A stretch of DNA of 40,065 bases from a virus. The notes below the pieces were generated by a model. The model was not told the DNA's origin. It made no database searches and saw only the letters and a list, made by a program, of their open reading frames with translations. Position numbers and translations under genes: made by a program. Shown here one piece after another: positions 7,039 through 24,940 of the stretch. The stretch spans positions 1-40,065 of the IMG/VR virus record IMGVR_UViG_3300025645_000166; one strand, given 5' to 3'. The first letter of the stretch is position 1, and each line of letters starts with the position of its first letter.

Positions 7039-7263
7039 ATGTCCTATACTCTGGTAAAGGATCGTACATACACGATCTACCCGGGAACTGAATCCCAAAT
7101 GGACTACATGCTTTCTCGCTTTGATGTCCAGCGGTGGACCAAGTCGCTCAGTCTTGTAGAAACTGAGTACTACTCACTCGATGGAAATACCACGTTCTTT
7201 AGAAACAATGTAACAGTATATCTGAAGGTGCAGAATGGCGAAGAAAGAGATCGTGCCGGTTGA
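7039..7263 (+). CDS. Hypothetical protein, 74 aa
   Basis: ATG 7039 has GCGAGGAGG upstream, one of the best ribosome binding sites in the window. The product begins MSYTLVKDRTYTIYPG and is polar and Tyr/Thr-rich. Its end overlaps the start of the next gene by 29 nt, linking it to the amidotransferase/ligase operon. Function unknown. Confidence 0.6.
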   Translation: MSYTLVKDRTYTIYPGTESQMDYMLSRFDVQRWTKSLSLVETEYYSLDGNTTFFRNNVTVYLKVQNGEERDRAG

Positions 7264-8143
7264 ATGGCTTGAGAAGCACATGCCTAGAGGTGGTGGTACG
7301 TGCTCGTACTATTTGCAGAGTGAGACTGGTGCTGTCTCTGAACATGCTAACGACATCTGTCATGCTCGTGCCTTACCGGGCAATGACTATCTTGCAGGCA
7401 AAGAGATTGCCTCTATTCACAGCGCACTGCCAGAGAAGTCTGGTGCAGCAGTAGCTAAGAGATACTATGACTTTCTCTTTAGCAAGGAACGCTCACCATA
7501 TCGTCAAGCCTTCAATGGTCTTGAAGTTTACAAACGAGATGACGGAAGCTACATCGGTTTCAGTATTCTTGATACTGATGTACTTACTTGTCTCATTGGT
7601 TCTTTGTGCATCGCAAGCCGTACTCCGTGGGAATTTCCTTCGAAGGCAGAAGTGTTCTCTCAGGCACTTGATGCAGGATTGAAGGACACTGAAGCGTACT
7701 ACATCTGTCAGATTACCTCTAAGGAATTTGGTGGTCATCGACTGTCCGCTGATTACGTCAATGTACACACCACTATCTACAACTATGATGACTATGGTTA
7801 CTATGGTCGAATCAATGAACGATACAAGACTCATAGTCTCAAAGCGCTTGATAGCGGTGAGCTTAACTATCACAACCTTGGTGTGTATGCACACTCTAAC
7901 TACAAGAAGAAGCAGAGCTGTACGAAAATGTATAGGATGTTTGAAGGTGATGATGGTAAGTGCCATCCCTTCTTGTCTGACTTCGCAGCAAAGGTTGAGA
8001 CATATTACTACAAGGGTAGGTTTGGTGCGTTAGCTAAGGCTGATCCTAACTTTCCTATTCCTTTCCGACCTGTTGATAACGGGAATAAGATGGTCTCTAT
8101 TCAGGATTTGGTAAGCGCAAGGGAGCAGTGGTCAGCACTATGA
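7235..8143 (+). CDS. Unknown protein, first gene of the amidotransferase/amidoligase operon, 302 aa
   Basis: I do not recognise the family. It is soluble, Tyr-rich and acidic/basic mixed, with a Gly motif near the N-terminus (MPRGGGTCSYY), a hydrophobic core strand (LTCLIGSLCIAS, about 115-126) and a YDDYGYYGR repeat-like stretch about residue 190. There is no signal peptide. The stop overlaps the ATG of the class I amidotransferase (ATGA), so it is coupled to it. The position suggests a role in the same pathway, perhaps an enzyme or carrier, but no catalytic motif is identified. Confidence 0.6.
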   Translation: MAKKEIVPVEWLEKHMPRGGGTCSYYLQSETGAVSEHANDICHARALPGNDYLAGKEIASIHSALPEKSGAAVAKRYYDFLFSKERSPYRQAFNGLEVYKRDDGSYIGFSILDTDVLTCLIGSLCIASRTPWEFPSKAEVFSQALDAGLKDTEAYYICQITSKEFGGHRLSADYVNVHTTIYNYDDYGYYGRINERYKTHSLKALDSGELNYHNLGVYAHSNYKKKQSCTKMYRMFEGDDGKCHPFLSDFAAKVETYYYKGRFGALAKADPNFPIPFRPVDNGNKMVSIQDLVSAREQWSAL

Positions 8144-8850
8144 AACCTACATATACTATGTCTCGCCCTGATATGGGCATACAACAGATGTTCAATCTCA
8201 TGGGTTGGCAACGGACGAGTGATGTCTCCGAAGCTGACCTTGTTGTATTCCCCGGCGGTGCGGATGTTAATCCGTTTCTCTATGGCGAGAAGAGACATCC
8301 AACGACACAGATTGATTACTTCTCAGACATGGAAGATTTGAAATGTCTGAAGCAGTGCAGCGATAAGCAACCAAAGGTTGGCATCTGTCGTGGTGGTCAG
8401 TTCCTCAATGTTATGGTGGGCAATGGCTCATTGTATCAGCACGTGACGCACCATGCTATCGCGACTCTGCATGAGATGCGGCTAGGCCGTCCACTCGAAG
8501 GTTTCGTCACGTCTGTTGACGTAACCTCAACGCATCATCAGATGATGATCCCCGGCCCAGGCGGTGAAGTTCTCTATGCTGCCAATCGTTCGATGGAGAA
8601 GAACAAGGCCGAAGAGACAACTCGATATGTTATCGAGCATCGAGATAATATCTGGGATGACGCAGAGGTTATTCTTTATGAGGATCGTAACTGCCTCTGC
8701 TATCAGCCGCATCCCGAGTACACGGTCAAGGGTAACTACTACAACCGTGAAGTATTCTTCGGAATGATTGATCGCTTCATGATGGATAGCGAAGCGCAGA
8801 AGGTGAAGATGTGGGAAAACTTCTACAATCATTACCAGCGCCCCGACTAA
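8140..8850 (+). CDS. Class I glutamine amidotransferase (peptidase C26 / PuuD-like), 236 aa
   Basis: This is a triad (Cys-His-Glu) amidotransferase domain. Visible motifs are PGGADVNPFLYGE (residues 38-50), typical of gamma-glutamyl-GABA hydrolase-like enzymes, GICRGGQ (81-87) with the nucleophile Cys83, and QPHPEY near residue 200 with the catalytic His and Glu. Such proteins hydrolyse gamma-glutamyl amides or release ammonia from glutamine for a partner. Length is normal for a stand-alone domain. ATG 8140 overlaps the upstream stop (ATGA); a GTG at 8128 is also in frame. The neighbours are a class II amidotransferase and amide-forming ligases, suggesting either ammonia supply or trimming of a gamma-glutamyl product. 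Confidence 0.85.
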   Translation: MKPTYTMSRPDMGIQQMFNLMGWQRTSDVSEADLVVFPGGADVNPFLYGEKRHPTTQIDYFSDMEDLKCLKQCSDKQPKVGICRGGQFLNVMVGNGSLYQHVTHHAIATLHEMRLGRPLEGFVTSVDVTSTHHQMMIPGPGGEVLYAANRSMEKNKAEETTRYVIEHRDNIWDDAEVILYEDRNCLCYQPHPEYTVKGNYYNREVFFGMIDRFMMDSEAQKVKMWENFYNHYQRPD

Positions 8851-8900
8851 CCGACTACGGTGGCGCTAAAACCACGAATTTTTATCGCGAAAATTTTTGA
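8851..8900 (+). promoter_or_regulatory. Conserved intergenic element, copy B
   Basis: The element begins directly after the stop codon TAA at 8848-8850 with CCGACTACGG, identical over 10 bases to copy A at 3046. It then shows GGCGCTAAAAC, an AATTTTTAT block and CGCGAA in the same order. AATTTT and AAAATT flank TATCGCG, so a second hairpin is possible. It precedes the HNH gene and interrupts the otherwise overlapping operon. Confidence 0.5.
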
Positions 8901-8918
8901 CCAAAACAGGTATTGCGT

Positions 8919-9290
8919 ATGGCAAAAAAGATGAATGAAGATGTTCGAGACAAGAAACTACAGGAGAGTGTGTCTCCTGAGTGGAAAGTCAAGGCAGCGA
9001 AGTATCTCGCTCGTAACTCTCGATGGAGGGCAAAGCGAGATGGTCTCGAACATACTCTGCGTTGGGAAGATCTTATCATTCCTGATGTCTGCCCCATCAC
9101 TGAGGAACCTTTCTGGCCTGTCCTCGGTCAGCAGACACCTTACAGTATCACGATTGATCGTAAGAATGCTAACAAGGGGTATGTGCCAGACAATGTATGG
9201 GTGATCTGTCTCTCTGCTAATATTGCTAAGAGAGATTTCACTCTCGAACAGTTAAAGCGATTGGTTAAACTCTTACAGGAAGGTGAGTGA
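8919..9290 (+). CDS. HNH-type endonuclease, 123 aa
   Basis: The C-terminal half carries the phage HNH pattern: CPITEEPF (Cys/Pro start), SITIDRKNANKGYVPDNVWV, where Asp-Arg replaces the usual Asp-His, and a later ANIAKRDF. Related phage proteins are free-standing homing nucleases or small HNH nucleases. The basic N-terminus (SRWRAKRDGLEH) probably contacts DNA. ATG 8919 follows ACAGG. It lies between the two amidotransferase genes and behind intergenic element B, and ends 3 nt before the next ATG, so it looks like a mobile gene inserted into an existing operon. Confidence 0.65.
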   Translation: MAKKMNEDVRDKKLQESVSPEWKVKAAKYLARNSRWRAKRDGLEHTLRWEDLIIPDVCPITEEPFWPVLGQQTPYSITIDRKNANKGYVPDNVWVICLSANIAKRDFTLEQLKRLVKLLQEGE

Positions 9291-9293
9291 CAC

Positions 9294-10748
9294 ATGTGTG
9301 GATTGTTTGGTGCTGTCGGCACCGCTTTGAACAAGAAGGATGTGGAAGCCGTAAAGGAATTGGGCTTCCTCAGTGCTCTTCGAGGCATGGATAGCACCGG
9401 TGTTGGCTTTGCTTTTCGCAAGATGGGTAAGAAAGAGCGCAACACTACATACTTTAGTTGGATGAAGTCCATTGATCACTCGGTTGACTTCCTTTGGGCT
9501 GGTGATTTTGACAGAATTGTCGCTCAGCACAAGGATACGTTGTGTGTCATGGGGCACACTCGTGCTGCGACGTGCGGAAGTGTCAAAAAAGACAATGCTC
9601 ACCCCTTCCATGCTGCCCATATCATAGGAGCGCAGAATGGGTGCGTCCCCAAGTACCGTTTGGAGGCAAAAGATGGGGATAAAACGGATTCTGAGCTGCT
9701 GATCCGGAGCATCGCTGCTAAAGGGCTCCTAGAAGCCCTAGATTTGGCCGGACACAGCGCTGAGTATGCGGTCAGCTACCTAGATAGCCACCACAATGAA
9801 TTGGTCCTGGTGCGCAACGACAAGCGTCCTCTGGCCTATTGCTTTACGGAGGATAAAAAGAAGCTTTTCTGGGCTTCTGACGGTATGTTCTTGGAATTGG
9901 TCCGAGCACGCTTCCAAGACAGCATCCAGATGGGTGATATTGTGAACCTTGCTGCTGGGTACAAGCTCACTTGGATGTTCGGAAATGCCAAGCACAAACT
10001 CGAGGACATTAAGCCCGAGGTTCCTGAGTTTAAAGGTTGGGGTGATTTCCGGGCAAGGCGAAACAACTATGCTACTCAAGAAAAGGTTACCGAGCAGAAC
10101 AGTGTCTTCAAATCTCAGGAAGAGATTGAGCTTGCTCGTTCACGAGCCCTTCCCATGCTACCGACTTCTAGGAAAGCAGAGGATGATGATCCGACAGCAG
10201 TCCTTGCTGTTGACCACTCAAAGAAACTTGATCCGCCTGCGATTAACGTCAAGAACTTGAATGTGAGCGAAGGCTCAGTGGAGTTTCCTTTTCGTGTATT
10301 TAATGGTCGCTCTCCTCCCTCTTTCGGTTATCCTCCTCTCGTTCTTCTTAATGGTTTTCGAAAAGTTCTTCGATATACTGATTGGTATGGGCAGTTTGTT
10401 GGTCGCGATAAGCTCTATCAGCTGACGGCTAACGGTTGCATGATCAGTGGTAAGCATCCGCTCATGTCTGAGAAGGTATGGTGGTTGCACTACAATCAGT
10501 TTGTCATGGATGATTACATCGATGATCAATTGGTGAAAGATCATATCAAGTGCAACGGGATTGTGCCTCGTCGTGGCCAGCCGATCTACATCGGCACTCG
10601 TTTGTTGCTTGATGCTCACAACAACAAAGAAGCTGGTATTGAGAGAATGCATCAGATTAAAGAACAGCTTCACAATCCTGACCAGTTGTGGTTCGATCCA
10701 GCTTTCGACTGGAAAGATGAGGATGAAGAGGGAGTCTCATGCCACTAA
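9294..10748 (+). CDS. Class II (Ntn) glutamine amidotransferase with extra C-terminal domain, 484 aa
   Basis: The protein starts MCGLFGAVG, leaving Cys2 as the N-terminal nucleophile after Met removal, the hallmark of class II amidotransferases (GlmS, PurF, AsnB). Further motifs are RGMDSTG (30-36), GHTRAATCG (87-95), NAHPF (101-105), NG (115-116, oxyanion) and TDSELL (131-136). The domain ends near residue 235. Residues about 240-484 are not a synthetase or isomerase domain I recognise; they contain an Arg/Pro-rich linker and a second folded part from about 325. The ammonia acceptor domain is thus probably a separate protein, most likely one of the downstream ligases. The stop overlaps the next ATG by 10 nt. 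Confidence 0.85.
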   Translation: MCGLFGAVGTALNKKDVEAVKELGFLSALRGMDSTGVGFAFRKMGKKERNTTYFSWMKSIDHSVDFLWAGDFDRIVAQHKDTLCVMGHTRAATCGSVKKDNAHPFHAAHIIGAQNGCVPKYRLEAKDGDKTDSELLIRSIAAKGLLEALDLAGHSAEYAVSYLDSHHNELVLVRNDKRPLAYCFTEDKKKLFWASDGMFLELVRARFQDSIQMGDIVNLAAGYKLTWMFGNAKHKLEDIKPEVPEFKGWGDFRARRNNYATQEKVTEQNSVFKSQEEIELARSRALPMLPTSRKAEDDDPTAVLAVDHSKKLDPPAINVKNLNVSEGSVEFPFRVFNGRSPPSFGYPPLVLLNGFRKVLRYTDWYGQFVGRDKLYQLTANGCMISGKHPLMSEKVWWLHYNQFVMDDYIDDQLVKDHIKCNGIVPRRGQPIYIGTRLLLDAHNNKEAGIERMHQIKEQLHNPDQLWFDPAFDWKDEDEEGVSCH

Positions 10749-11896
10749 ACAAAGTACTGCATCCTGAGTGGTGGAATAATAGACCAAAGAAACGTAAGAT
10801 CGAGAAGCTTGATCTACGTCCTAAGCAAGAACCTTATGTGAGACCTGATCCTCCACCAGCAAGGGATGGGTGGGAGGTTGAGTGGATTGCAAAGTATGTG
10901 AAATGGGTTGAAGTACCCGTACCTGTTCGCAATCCAGATCCTCTTCGCTACTTTCGGCTAGGTCTTGCAAGGGCTGATGAGGTACGGGGTGATGATTTTG
11001 AATTAGTCTGGGGTATACCAAATCCAGACGGACCAGGAGCAGAGTATCTAGAGGATGGAAGTGTTATGGCTAAAGTAAGTATCGGTGCTGATCCAGAATT
11101 CTTTCTCAAGCATGGCAACAAAAACATCAGTGCACACGGTATTGTGCCTGGTGATAAGGCTGAACCGCACAAGCTTAAGTTTGGTGCAGTCCAGCTGGAT
11201 GGTACGGCTGTTGAATTCAATATCAATCCGTCGTATACTAGGAAAGAGTTCACAGAGAACGTGTTGGGGACTCTCAATGAGGTTCGCAGCATGGTGCCGA
11301 AGAAGTATCGCTTCAACTTCTCTCCTGCTGTGAATTACAACGCAGAATACTTTAAGAAGATTCCATCCAAATGTAAGGAGTTGGGATGTGACCCTGATTT
11401 TGACGCTTACGCTTACGGTAAGCCTAACGAACGCCCTGACAATCGTACTACCATGCGTACTGGTGCAGGGCACCTACATATTGGCTGGGATGAGACTGGC
11501 GGACTTGATGTTAAAGATCAGTCTCACATCTTGGACTGCTGCCTGCTCAGTAAGAACTTGGATGCGATCTTCTCCATGATTGAACGCAACTGGGACGAGG
11601 ATACCAAGCGCCGTAAGATGTACGGTAAGCTGGGTGCCTTCCGTCCCAAGAAATATGGATGTGAGTATCGTTCTCTGAGCAATGCTTGGGTACGGTATCC
11701 GAAGTTGTATCCTTTCATCTTCGATCTGTGCAAGCGTACGTATGCGTACTCTGTGAAAGGTAAGGATCTTGCCAAGTCTTTCAACCTACCTGGAACACTT
11801 AGCCCCGATCAGTTTAATACTTATTGTAAGCGGCTTGGTGTTTTTACAACGGCTATCTTCCCTGTCGACTTTAAAACGGAGATTTACGGTGCCTAA
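10739..11896 (+). CDS. phiEco32-like COOH-NH2 ligase type 2 (amidoligase), 385 aa
   Basis: Residues from about 113 match the glutamine-synthetase-fold amidoligases predicted in phiEco32-like phages: IGADPEFFL (115-123), LDGTAVEFNINPS (153-165) with paired metal/ATP-binding Glu, HLHIGW (245-250), then KMYGKLGAFRPKKYG (293-307) and EYRSLSNAW (309-317). The family is predicted to join a carboxylate and an amine using ATP. The first 110 residues are a Pro/Trp-rich extension not typical of the core domain; an internal ATG at 11066 would give the core alone. The ATG overlaps the upstream amidotransferase, and the 3' end overlaps the next gene by 8 nt. Confidence 0.8.
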   Translation: MPLNKVLHPEWWNNRPKKRKIEKLDLRPKQEPYVRPDPPPARDGWEVEWIAKYVKWVEVPVPVRNPDPLRYFRLGLARADEVRGDDFELVWGIPNPDGPGAEYLEDGSVMAKVSIGADPEFFLKHGNKNISAHGIVPGDKAEPHKLKFGAVQLDGTAVEFNINPSYTRKEFTENVLGTLNEVRSMVPKKYRFNFSPAVNYNAEYFKKIPSKCKELGCDPDFDAYAYGKPNERPDNRTTMRTGAGHLHIGWDETGGLDVKDQSHILDCCLLSKNLDAIFSMIERNWDEDTKRRKMYGKLGAFRPKKYGCEYRSLSNAWVRYPKLYPFIFDLCKRTYAYSVKGKDLAKSFNLPGTLSPDQFNTYCKRLGVFTTAIFPVDFKTEIYGA

Positions 11897-12521
11897 GGTC
11901 GTGCGTAACTTTGACTTTGCTGAACGTCGTGATTGTGTCCGATACTTTCACGATACTGTTTGTCGTTACAAGCAGGAATTCGTACGAGTAACGTGCGACA
12001 ACTACGATTTCGAAAGCATTCACGATATCTCCATCCGATCACTTGGAGGTAGGGATAAGAAGGTTAAGATAAAATGTACTGATGATGACTTCTCTGTTCA
12101 CATGCCTGAGCTTGGCTATGTCAACACGAGAGAAGGTGCATTCTATCTGAAGAGGAAGCCTATCCGAGATCAGAAAGGTGGTCTCTCTCCTCAGTACCTT
12201 ACGTTCCACGGCACTCGTAAACCTTACAATTTCGGTACTTCAATCATCTTTGAAGATTGCGGTCTTCAGATGCTGGAGAACAAGTATCCTGGTTTCGGAG
12301 TTGCTGATGCTTCTCTTGAATACGGAGTGCTTGACTCGGTAGCTTTTGCAAAGCATCTGTGTGTGCGATTGCAAAACCGATGGACAAAAGTAATTGATTA
12401 TCGTGGAGAGACTGCTGCTATCTATGATAATCGAGCAAAGGAATGGTACATTCCCCAGCCTAGGAATGATACCTCATTCATTAAGGCTATCTTGTTGCGT
12501 AACGGAGTTGAGGTTAAGTAG
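11889..12521 (+). CDS. Unknown protein in amidoligase operon, 210 aa
   Basis: The start is GTG 11889 with CGGAG 7 nt upstream, overlapping the end of the amidoligase; longer in-frame extensions would lie wholly within that gene. The protein (MPKVVRNFDFAERRDC...) is soluble and strand-rich with conserved-looking Gly/aromatic turns (PELGYVNTREGAFYL; FHGTRKPYNFGTSIIFEDCG). I recognise no family. Because it separates two ligase-type genes in a coupled operon, it may be a subunit, a substrate carrier or a modifying enzyme of the same pathway. Confidence 0.55.
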   Translation: MPKVVRNFDFAERRDCVRYFHDTVCRYKQEFVRVTCDNYDFESIHDISIRSLGGRDKKVKIKCTDDDFSVHMPELGYVNTREGAFYLKRKPIRDQKGGLSPQYLTFHGTRKPYNFGTSIIFEDCGLQMLENKYPGFGVADASLEYGVLDSVAFAKHLCVRLQNRWTKVIDYRGETAAIYDNRAKEWYIPQPRNDTSFIKAILLRNGVEVK

Positions 12522-12523
12522 AC

Positions 12524-13534
12524 ATGAAATCACTCGGTGAGTACTACAACGCATTTGTCAAGCGTGGCGATGTGGGTATCGAGATTGAATGCGAGGCGGA
12601 TGAAGCCTTGCCGAAAGTAAATGGTAAGGGGTGGGTATCCCATGAGGACCCCTCCCTTCGAGGGTTCAACCAGGAGTACGTGACAGCCGGTCCCATTCCT
12701 CTCAACACTGTTGGAGAGTATATGGATAACCTGCTGCGTCAGGTTGACGCCAAGAAAGTGAAAGACTCGTATCGAACGAGTGTTCACGTTCATAAGAACG
12801 TACTCAAATATTCCCCACTGTCTATCTGGAATGCGCTGTGTGCTTACTGGATTATGGAAGAGATGATCCATAAGTATTGTGGCGAGAACAGGCAGTACAA
12901 TACGTTCTGTCTGAGACTGCGTGATGCAGAGGCTATTCTTGACGCTTGTCTCTACGACATTAGTCTTGATTATCCTTTCCGTTCTTTCAAAGACAACGAT
13001 ACCATCCGATACGGTGGTGCTAACCTTGCTGCTATCCGCAAGTTCGGTACCATTGAGTTCCGTGGTATGCGTGGAACAATGGATAAGGAGATCATTAAGA
13101 CTTGGTGTAATGAAGTCTCCTCTATTGTCGATACGGCAGCTATTCAGTTCGACTCCCCGGAGCACTTGCTGGATACGTTCTATCACGAAGACAAAGATAA
13201 GTTCGTAGATAAGTTCTTGTCTTTCGGCTTCTCCGAAGAAGTCAAGAAGCTCAATCCTGACTGGAAAGATCTACTTCAGAATGGTGCTGAACGTATCATG
13301 CCATTGGCGTATACGTGCGACTGGAATAAATGGATCAAGAAGATGGAGAAGGGTTTCGAGGACAAGGTCTACAATGGCACCATTGGTGCAGATCGTGATC
13401 CTCCGCCCCCTCGTCGTCCCCGTGGTGGAGCGGCTCTTGATCTTGCTGCTGTTAGGGAAAGAGAGCGAGCACGTATCGATCTAATTATGGCTCAGCAAGC
13501 CGCAGGTTTCAATCAGTTCGAAGAAGTTGAATAA
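12524..13534 (+). CDS. Amidoligase-family enzyme (glutamine synthetase-like fold), 336 aa
   Basis: Motifs expected of the putative amidoligase family are present: GIEIECE (18-24) near the N-terminus, EYVTAGP (51-57), SVHVHKN (86-92) with metal-binding-type His residues, and FGTIEFRGMRGTMD (174-187). These suggest ATP-dependent amide or peptide bond formation between a carboxylate and an amine. The C-terminal 50 residues (about 290-336) are Pro/Arg/Ala-rich and probably disordered, ending FEEVE. It starts 3 nt after the previous stop and is followed 12 nt later by an ATP-grasp gene. It is clearly different in sequence from the ligase at 10739, so two distinct amidoligases sit in one operon. 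Confidence 0.75.
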   Translation: MKSLGEYYNAFVKRGDVGIEIECEADEALPKVNGKGWVSHEDPSLRGFNQEYVTAGPIPLNTVGEYMDNLLRQVDAKKVKDSYRTSVHVHKNVLKYSPLSIWNALCAYWIMEEMIHKYCGENRQYNTFCLRLRDAEAILDACLYDISLDYPFRSFKDNDTIRYGGANLAAIRKFGTIEFRGMRGTMDKEIIKTWCNEVSSIVDTAAIQFDSPEHLLDTFYHEDKDKFVDKFLSFGFSEEVKKLNPDWKDLLQNGAERIMPLAYTCDWNKWIKKMEKGFEDKVYNGTIGADRDPPPPRRPRGGAALDLAAVRERERARIDLIMAQQAAGFNQFEEVE

Positions 13535-13546
13535 GGAAACACGTCT

Positions 13547-14302
13547 ATGAATGTGAATGCAGTCTACGCCTATGATGTCCACAGCAAGTCTGCACGTATG
13601 ATTGCAGACGAGCTTGGTATTAAGATCATCAAGCACGACTTCTCTAACTTCAAAGGTAATCAGGATAAGCTGGTTATCAATTGGGGATGTTCTGATCTCC
13701 CTCGTGAAGTGAGAGCTTGTAAGATCATCAATCCTGAGAACGGAGTACGCAATGCATGCAATAAGCTTTTCACCTTCAGAGCCCTATCTGGCAACCCTGA
13801 TATTAAGATCCCTGACTGGACACAAGAGATTGATATCGCTCAAGGATGGGCAGGTAAGGTGTTCTGTCGTACTAAGCTTACCGGACACGACGGAGACGGT
13901 ATCGTACTCGTTAACAACGGCAGAGATATTGTCCCTGCTAAACTCTACACCAAAGGAATTGGTCCAGCTGAAGATCTCCGAGAATACCGGATCAATATCT
14001 TCCGCGATCACGTTGTCACTCGGCAAAAGAAAGTTCGAGTTCGGGCGTGGCAGGGAGGATACAACGACGAAATCAAAACTACGAATGGTGGTTATGGATT
14101 TGATGTAGTCGATCAGGTTCCTCTTGGTGTCATTCCTATGGCCAAGAAAGCTGTAGCTGCATTGGGTCTTGACTTTGGTGGTGTGGATGTGGTAGTGTAC
14201 AAGGACCAGCCATACATTCTTGAGGTCAATACTGCACCGCAGCTTACACCATTTACCTGCCAGCGGCTGGCGAAACTGATCAAGGAGAAAGACAATGAAT
14301 AA
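13547..14302 (+). CDS. ATP-grasp ligase (RimK-like), 251 aa
   Basis: Motifs are those of ATP-grasp carboxylate-amine ligases: a central KVFCRTKLTGHDGDGIVL stretch (104-121) with the nucleotide-binding strand and Gly loop, EYRINIF (146-152), DFGGVDVVV (209-217) and the Mg-binding LEVNTAP (225-231). The family activates a carboxylate as acyl-phosphate and couples it to an amine, as in RimK, D-Ala-D-Ala ligase and peptide-tag synthesis. The N-terminal half (1-90) is a short pre-grasp domain. ATG 13547 follows AAGGAAACACGTCT. It ends the amidotransferase/amidoligase cassette. Confidence 0.8.
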   Translation: MNVNAVYAYDVHSKSARMIADELGIKIIKHDFSNFKGNQDKLVINWGCSDLPREVRACKIINPENGVRNACNKLFTFRALSGNPDIKIPDWTQEIDIAQGWAGKVFCRTKLTGHDGDGIVLVNNGRDIVPAKLYTKGIGPAEDLREYRINIFRDHVVTRQKKVRVRAWQGGYNDEIKTTNGGYGFDVVDQVPLGVIPMAKKAVAALGLDFGGVDVVVYKDQPYILEVNTAPQLTPFTCQRLAKLIKEKDNE

Positions 14303-14321: not shown

Positions 14322-14669
14322 ATGAAAGACAACGAATATAAAAGGTGTAATCTATGTAACTACACTGACATGGATGAGACGATCCCAAAGCGCAACTTCC
14401 GCCTAGACAAACAGACAAATGAATATCACTGCACTCAATGTATCATGTCCATTGAGGATGTTCTTTTGTACTATGACGAGAAGGAAGATGTGGCTCATGT
14501 TCCATACTGGAAGCGTGAGAAGAGGGGCGGCTTTAAGGAAGGTAATCCTGGTAACAAGAAGAACTGGGATAAGGCAACATTGGACGAACTGCTGAAAACA
14601 GATGGAGAAATTCCATTGTTAAATCAGGAGGTTGAAGAATATATGGAGGAAGATGAAAATTCTTCTTGA
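14322..14669 (+). CDS. Zinc-ribbon-like protein, 115 aa
   Basis: Two CxxC pairs, CNLC (residues 9-12) and CTQC (37-40), separated by 24 residues, indicate a zinc ribbon. The rest is basic then acidic (WKREKRGGFKEGNPGNKKNW; EEYMEEDENSS). The layout resembles small phage HNH-like or DNA-binding proteins, but no nuclease His is obvious. ATG 14322 follows a weak GGAACAAT site. The following promoter overlaps its last codons. Confidence 0.55.
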   Translation: MKDNEYKRCNLCNYTDMDETIPKRNFRLDKQTNEYHCTQCIMSIEDVLLYYDEKEDVAHVPYWKREKRGGFKEGNPGNKKNWDKATLDELLKTDGEIPLLNQEVEEYMEEDENSS

Positions 14670-14694
14670 CATTTAGAGAGATTACCATTATAGT
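14666..14694 (+). promoter_or_regulatory. Near-consensus sigma70-type promoter
   Basis: TTGACA (14666-14671) is a perfect -35 box and TATAGT (14689-14694) a 5/6 -10 box, with a 17-nt spacer. Transcription would start near 14701 and give a leader of about 18 nt before the primase-helicase ATG at 14719. The -35 box overlaps the stop codon of the upstream gene. It is the only clearly consensus bacterial promoter I found in the window, consistent with host RNA polymerase reading the replication module. Confidence 0.75.
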
Positions 14695-24197: not shown

Positions 24198-24492
24198 AAT
24201 AGGACCTTTCACTTTCAAGGTTAATCATATTGATGGTCTCAGAAATGTAGATGATGCACGACTTCATGGACGACATGATAGTGTCTTCAAAGTCATCGAT
24301 ATTGAGAAAAAGCAATGTGAACAAATGAAAAAGGAGACTCTCATTCACGAGTGTCTTCATGCAATGATTGACGTAGCTGGTCTTGACTTTAAAGGACTTG
24401 AGGAAGCTTACGTTACTGCCATGTCTCCTATCATCTTTGGTTGGATTAAGGACAACCCTAAGACAATTACATGGATATTAAATGAAAGATAA
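24175..24492 (+). CDS. HExxH zinc metallopeptidase-like protein, 105 aa
   Basis: The motif H58-E-C-L-H62 in ETLIHECLHAMID matches zinc peptidases (SprT/ImmA-like small phage forms). A downstream acidic residue in GLEEAYVTAM could be the third ligand. The N-terminal half is a short beta domain (IKIGPFTFKVNHID). ATG 24175 overlaps the MazG gene by 23 nt. Substrate unknown; phage forms are commonly found in nucleotide-metabolism operons. Confidence 0.6.
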   Translation: MALPNKIKIGPFTFKVNHIDGLRNVDDARLHGRHDSVFKVIDIEKKQCEQMKKETLIHECLHAMIDVAGLDFKGLEEAYVTAMSPIIFGWIKDNPKTITWILNER

Positions 24493-24940
24493 CATTCTAT
24501 TTCTAGACCTAGACGGAGTTCTACTCCCGTTTGGATCATACGATGATCTTGATACAAGAGCCATGCTTCAGAAACCTTTAGAGTTTAAAGACGCTCTCGT
24601 AGAACGTACTCCTAAAGAGAATATCGATGCTCTCCACAAGCTTGGAGAAGATCATACATTTGTGTTGATTTCTACTTGGCGATACTTGGTTCCGGATGAG
24701 ATGATTAAAGAGTACATGAGTGCTCTTGACCTATGGAAGTACTTTCATAAGGAACGCCCTATCGCTAATTTCTCTATTCAGTATGCTGATAAGCCTGTAG
24801 ATATTAATCGATGGCTCGCAGAATACGAGCACGGTGGGACTGGTATCCTTGTTATCGATGATCGGGATATGACTCATCACTTTAAGCACTCAACAATTAA
24901 GCAGATCGCTCCTGATCCGAAGGTAGGCTATCTTGGTTAG
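24482..24940 (+). CDS. HAD-family hydrolase, 152 aa
   Basis: The HAD signature is complete: FLDLDGVLL with D9 and D11, STW (64-66) for motif II and DDRD (126-129) for motif IV. There is no large cap insertion, so a macromolecular or small phosphate such as a nucleotide 5'-phosphate or a DNA end is likely. The gene overlaps both neighbours by 8-11 nt in the nucleotide-metabolism operon. Confidence 0.75.
   Translation: MKDNILFLDLDGVLLPFGSYDDLDTRAMLQKPLEFKDALVERTPKENIDALHKLGEDHTFVLISTWRYLVPDEMIKEYMSALDLWKYFHKERPIANFSIQYADKPVDINRWLAEYEHGGTGILVIDDRDMTHHFKHSTIKQIAPDPKVGYLG

Follow-up and report, generated by a model that had tools for sequence, protein, structure and literature searches.

What is made by a seven-kilobase block of amidotransferase and amidoligase genes that a phage carries among its replication genes? 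The block belongs to the IMG/VR virus record IMGVR_UViG_3300025645_000166, whose 40,065 bases were analyzed as a whole and are called the window here. A sequence-only reading had described five enzyme genes and two unknown proteins (UNK302 and UNK210), ordered on one strand and mostly overlapping, as a probable undescribed amide-forming pathway. Open reading frames and Pfam and PHROG matches agree with that layout: all of the named genes are open reading frames on the plus strand at the positions it gave, and neighbors mostly overlap or lie less than 20 bases apart. It overlooked an HNH/endonuclease-VII-like gene between the two glutamine amidotransferase (GATase) genes, which falls outside the set of conserved cassette genes and is an insertion inside the cassette with no part in the pathway. 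Judged by sequence, the cassette is a confirmed and apparently intact example of a phage module that is known but whose biochemistry is unsolved; a linked amide/peptide-bond pathway is supported, but the word undescribed has to be given up, the module having appeared in PMC5498523, PMC6256558, PMC3890496 and PMC11945000. We favor, with some reserve, its assignment to the phage 'peptidoglycan modification' (amidoligase) module of virulent podophages, performing cytoplasmic gamma-glutamyl/amide ligation most likely on putative cell-wall peptide precursors.

Seven proteins are co-conserved, with catalytic residues intact and in a fixed order beside replication genes. The first alignments set the enzymes of the window beside those of nine phages drawn from different groups; 80 IMG/VR loci with the ligase were collected, 67 of which had enough flank for comparison by profile hidden Markov models (HMMs). 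The class-II GATase, UNK210, Amidoligase_2 and ATP-grasp genes were each present in all 67 comparable loci, the class-I gene in 62 and UNK302 in 60, and the exact gene order of the window recurred in 45; these samples are related phages, not independent events. Such gene order is far above chance, being shared by dozens of divergent phages. Adjacency of the COOH-NH2 ligase, UNK210 and Amidoligase_2 genes persists even in phiEco32 and the LUZ24-like phages, in which the other genes shift. Annotated phages include 329 records with a class-II GATase homolog and 317 with a ligase homolog, with nearly identical counts per genus, and 84,980 prokaryote genomes yielded 11 loci, all on contigs of metagenome-assembled genomes. 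The cassette is phage-restricted, and the cultured hosts listed for cassette phages are Gram-negative. A homolog of the COOH-NH2 ligase is also present in Escherichia phage AidaStucki_Bas93 (H185), which appears to belong to a laboratory collection and would be convenient for experiments.

The COOH-NH2 ligase, Amidoligase_2, ATP-grasp enzyme and class-II GATase are co-located in the window, and all cassette enzymes keep their catalytic residues, so far as sequence can tell; in each enzyme family, 78-91 sequences show about 93-100% conservation of these residues. The sequence-only reading had staked its case on conserved catalytic residues and on co-occurrence elsewhere, and both were found; the motifs that it quoted are invariant or nearly invariant in relatives. 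By family description, the COOH-NH2 ligase is in the glutamine-synthetase/GCS superfamily and Amidoligase_2 is a second glutamine-synthetase-fold ligase; comparison of the two profiles gave no usable similarity. The former retains GADPE, Gln152, Asp154, Glu159, His245, Arg302 and Arg311 in at least 98% of 91 sequences, the latter Glu20, Glu22, Glu24, His88, His90, Arg123, Glu178 and Arg180 in 98-100% of 89. For the ATP-grasp enzyme, the nearest solved profile matches are the RimK alpha-L-glutamate ligases 7qyr (8.8e-9) and 4iwx, and Lys73, Arg108, Glu146, Lys162, Asp214, Glu226 and Asn228 are conserved. The class-II GATase matches the glutaminase domains of GlmS and PurF and has conserved Arg90, Asn115, Gly116 and Asp132; its Cys2 was examined apart from these, in the start-codon analysis given below. 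At its N-terminus (window 10739-11065) the COOH-NH2 ligase bears about 110 extra residues not seen in relatives, and its gene has an alternative ATG at 11066 with a possible Shine-Dalgarno sequence.

The label of class-I amidotransferase fits less well, the protein being closer to the gamma-glutamyl hydrolases Lin1909 and PuuD. Its closest profile match is 3fij (Lin1909, 2.8e-15), with 7d4r and 6vtv (PuuD) as further matches, and a Cys81-His189-Glu191 triad is 100% conserved in 78 class-I sequences. Its membership of the Peptidase_C26 family and its Cys-His-Glu triad fit a PuuD/SpuA-type enzyme, and it is better read as a putative PuuD/SpuA-like gamma-glutamyl hydrolase than as an ammonia-donating subunit. 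Characterized members of the PuuD and SpuA group cleave gamma-glutamyl amides. Moreover, HMM searches place a gamma-glutamyl cyclotransferase gene at most a few kilobases away in 34 of 90 loci, and it also occurs in phiEco32, CW02, phiM6 and LUZ24-like phages; since it is frequent but not universal, it is not a strict requirement for membership. We read the module as one of gamma-glutamyl/amide chemistry because the class-I protein is near Lin1909 and PuuD, the ATP-grasp enzyme is near the RimK glutamate ligases and the cyclotransferase is so frequent a neighbor.

UNK302 and UNK210, which both match PHROG families of unknown function, are core members of the module and not bystanders, without a recognizable solved fold; this is new here. 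A single-protein search with UNK302 in viral contigs returned zero relatives, and iterated profile HMMs over neighboring open reading frames recovered it in 68 loci as a diverged family in which Cys42 and Arg129 are 97% conserved. Its structural model is of medium confidence (predicted local distance difference test, pLDDT, 72), has no match in a fold search of the PDB, and appears to share its fold only with other, mostly cassette-type, phage proteins, from CW02, CVT22, GAP52 and LAh_6. The UNK210 model (pLDDT 91.6) likewise has no PDB match at E<=0.001, and its conserved residues are few (Gly76, Arg89 and Gly98); profile and fold searches of both proteins against solved structures gave nothing usable. 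Five loci (L082, L054, L034, L069 and L080) encode UNK302 relatives of 516-661 residues with added N-terminal segments, in which no confident Pfam domain was found in the four scanned (L082, L054, L034 and L069).

By its gene backbone the window phage matches the Zobellviridae; its genome may not be complete in the window. The backbone comprises primase/helicase, DNA polymerase I, Cas4-type exonuclease, endonuclease I, ribonucleotide reductase and MazG genes, with structural genes on the opposite strand, and in gene content it resembles that of the zobellvirid SIO1. The cassette is placed directly upstream of the primase/helicase gene, as are the cassettes of the Zobellviridae PA11, CVT22 and PQ867851, which have the same seven genes in the same order and ligases 36-39% identical to those of the window, where the COOH-NH2 ligase has in addition its N-terminal extension of about 110 residues. 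In the literature, a seven-gene peptidoglycan modification cassette is reported for phiRIO-1 and PSA-HP1, citing Hardies 2013 and Iyer (PMC5498523), seven open reading frames for peptide bond synthesis are read as a wall-modifying cassette (PMC6256558), and the cassette is recorded in LUZ24-like phages (PMC3890496, PMC11945000). Published accounts apply the label 'peptidoglycan modification' to phiRIO-1, PA11, CW02, phiEco32, LUZ24 and others (PMC5498523, PMC6256558, PMC11945000) and interpret it as modification of peptidoglycan side chains, perhaps against superinfection (PMC5498523, PMC6256558, PMC11945000, PMC10580990). Like the window, the phiRIO-1/PSA-HP1 cassette combines a gamma-glutamyl amidoligase, a second amidoligase, an ATP-grasp enzyme and a glutamine amidotransferase among replication genes (PMC5498523); PSA-HP1 has the gamma-glutamyl cyclotransferase, whereas the window has the HNH insertion. 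In phiEco32 (gp77-gp87) the COOH-NH2 ligase, UNK210 and Amidoligase_2 are adjacent as in the window, followed by the class-II GATase and ATP-grasp genes, but the gene order is otherwise different, no class-I GATase was detected, the cyclotransferase is present and the class-II GATase starts with ATT. The LUZ24-like cassettes (UFV-P2, PMC3890496; phiIBB-PAA2) share the ligase, UNK210, Amidoligase_2, class-II GATase and ATP-grasp genes and differ in having the class-II GATase after Amidoligase_2, a cyclotransferase and no detected class-I GATase.

How might these proteins act together? No obvious signal peptide or membrane helix was seen in the cassette proteins. Acting in the host cytoplasm during infection, the two glutamine-synthetase-fold ligases and the RimK-like ATP-grasp enzyme would spend ATP on adding successive amide/gamma-glutamyl bonds to a small peptide; ammonia or an amidated product would come from the class-II GATase, and the PuuD/SpuA-like class-I enzyme, like the gamma-glutamyl cyclotransferase of many relatives, would trim gamma-glutamyl groups. 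UNK302 and UNK210 may serve as scaffold or substrate-binding partners, and the wall would be altered during infection, for example against superinfection. The leading candidate for the putative substrate, proposed tentatively, is the stem peptide of peptidoglycan precursors, which contains gamma-D-Glu. Several observations weigh against this proposal. A wall substrate is plausible, by argument and not by data: the literature found demonstrates neither a cassette product by experiment nor a substrate, as the sequence-only reading had said of the latter. Neither ligase matches a solved structure in sequence profile searches, and the substrate is therefore unreadable from a template. The gamma-glutamyl cyclotransferase was not found in the window by HMM, although the window could be only part of a genome. 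Roseobacter phage SIO1 lacks the cassette, which is thus dispensable there, making the module an accessory block. Finally, a role directed at nucleotides or proteins would suit its position among replication genes equally well.

The next likeliest product, on balance a doubtful one, is a soluble gamma-glutamyl peptide or polyamine conjugate of the glutathione or gamma-glutamylputrescine type, acting for example as DNA counter-ion or redox buffer. The resemblance of the class-I enzyme to PuuD/SpuA-type gamma-glutamyl hydrolases and the frequent cyclotransferase neighbor suit such a product, and linked ligases often assemble small peptides stepwise (PMC4431377); however, no transporter, polyamine or thiol gene was found in the cassette, and a degrading hydrolase beside synthetic enzymes would require separate targets. 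It is unlikely that the ATP-grasp enzyme and the ligases add amino acids to a protein (a ribosomal protein, RNA polymerase or a phage protein such as UNK210) as RimK does to S6. RimK enzymes are indeed the nearest solved relatives of the ATP-grasp enzyme, but small peptides are also made by RimK-like folds; UNK210, which always adjoins the ligases and whose confident but unmatched fold could be that of a carrier, has few conserved residues and no obvious conserved C-terminal acceptor. Addition of amino acid or amide groups to the bases of phage DNA (hypermodification), which the adjoining primase/helicase and polymerase genes might suggest, is highly improbable because RsaI, HpaI, EcoRV, SmaI and HaeIII all cut the DNA of phage tf, which bears the cassette (PMC3517423), and the annotated genes include no base-modifying partner.

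Since Cys2 of the class-II GATase is needed as the N-terminal nucleophile, the start codon of this gene is pinned. The codon before the Cys in 177 distinct loci was ATG in 127 (including L023, which reads Met-Cys-Cys-Gly), ATT in 29, ATC in 9, TTG in 8 and GTG in 4. All 38 ATT/ATC sites, for instance those of phiEco32 (L005, ATT), O4 (L017/L259) and K4 (L261), have a Shine-Dalgarno sequence, and genuine initiation at these codons is likely. A propeptide was considered as another explanation and rejected for most of them, because 31 of the 38 loci have no canonical in-frame start upstream. The codon varies even between near-identical enzymes (PA11 TTG versus O4 ATC), and on a tree of 80 the ATT/ATC trait requires 21 changes, of which well-supported branches force 13, and is clustered no more than shuffled labels. 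A canonical start was never lacking in the searched range for the COOH-NH2 ligase (0/91), the class-I protein (0/69) or Amidoligase_2 (0/88), whose starts are less tightly pinned. The O4 and K4 records annotate the class-II GATase from a downstream start, so that the catalytic Cys is lost from the deposited protein. In Aeromonas phage LAh_8 (L260:1501-2241), a class-II GATase frame with an ATG start and a strong match has no annotated gene. In E. coli and Streptomyces, infC starts with ATT or ATC, and initiation at such codons is repressed by IF3 (PMC5472188). The recurrent ATT/ATC start before the class-II catalytic Cys is new here; possibly the enzyme has repeatedly come under a start codon of the infC type that IF3 represses, and, more speculatively, its translation is throttled or tied to the IF3 level during infection. 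This reading concerns the family and not the window phage, because the window copy starts with ATG.

Coordinates of the cassette and its adjoining region are collected below. No strong internal terminator or promoter pattern was seen across the cassette region, and the promoter count there is not above that of shuffles, which leaves the listed match as weak evidence. Elsewhere, among nucleotide metabolism genes, window 24482-24937 encodes a HAD_SAK_2 protein (HAD domain of 'Swiss Army Knife' RNA repair proteins; PF18143, 9.4e-11).

Features of the amidoligase cassette and the region downstream of it in the window
Feature	Position	Strand	Matches and remarks
Unknown protein 1 (UNK302), 302 residues, first cassette gene, phage-only family	7235..8143	+	phrog_34254 6.7e-11
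Peptidase_C26 / class-I GATase domain	8140..8850	+	PF07722 3e-13; start ATG 8140 or GTG 8128
HNH / endonuclease-VII-like gene	8919..9290	+	phrog_3322 1e-27, phrog_1035 1.1e-13
Class-II (Ntn) glutamine amidotransferase, Cys2 nucleophile, ATG start	9294..10748	+	PF13522 7e-12
phiEco32-type COOH-NH2 ligase	10739..11896	+	PF14395 1.1e-7, phrog_3815 1.4e-61
Unknown protein 2 (UNK210), 210 residues, GTG start, between both ligases	11889..12521	+	phrog_11055 1.7e-12
Amidoligase_2	12524..13534	+	PF12224 3.7e-8, phrog_7469 9.4e-47
RimK-like ATP-grasp ligase	13547..14302	+	PF02655/RimK; phrog_2599 4.5e-58
Sigma-70-like promoter match, 11/12	14666..14694	+	between cassette and primase/helicase gene

Hundreds of sequenced virulent phages, including ones on Pseudomonas aeruginosa and E. 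coli, carry the module, and now that its tight seven-gene core with two phage-only proteins is defined, the pathway can be put to the test in an ordinary phiEco32-group phage of E. coli. From the recurrent ATT/ATC starts it is evident that gene callers shorten the class-II enzyme and drop its catalytic Cys in deposited records (O4 and K4); these starts may also reveal translational control.

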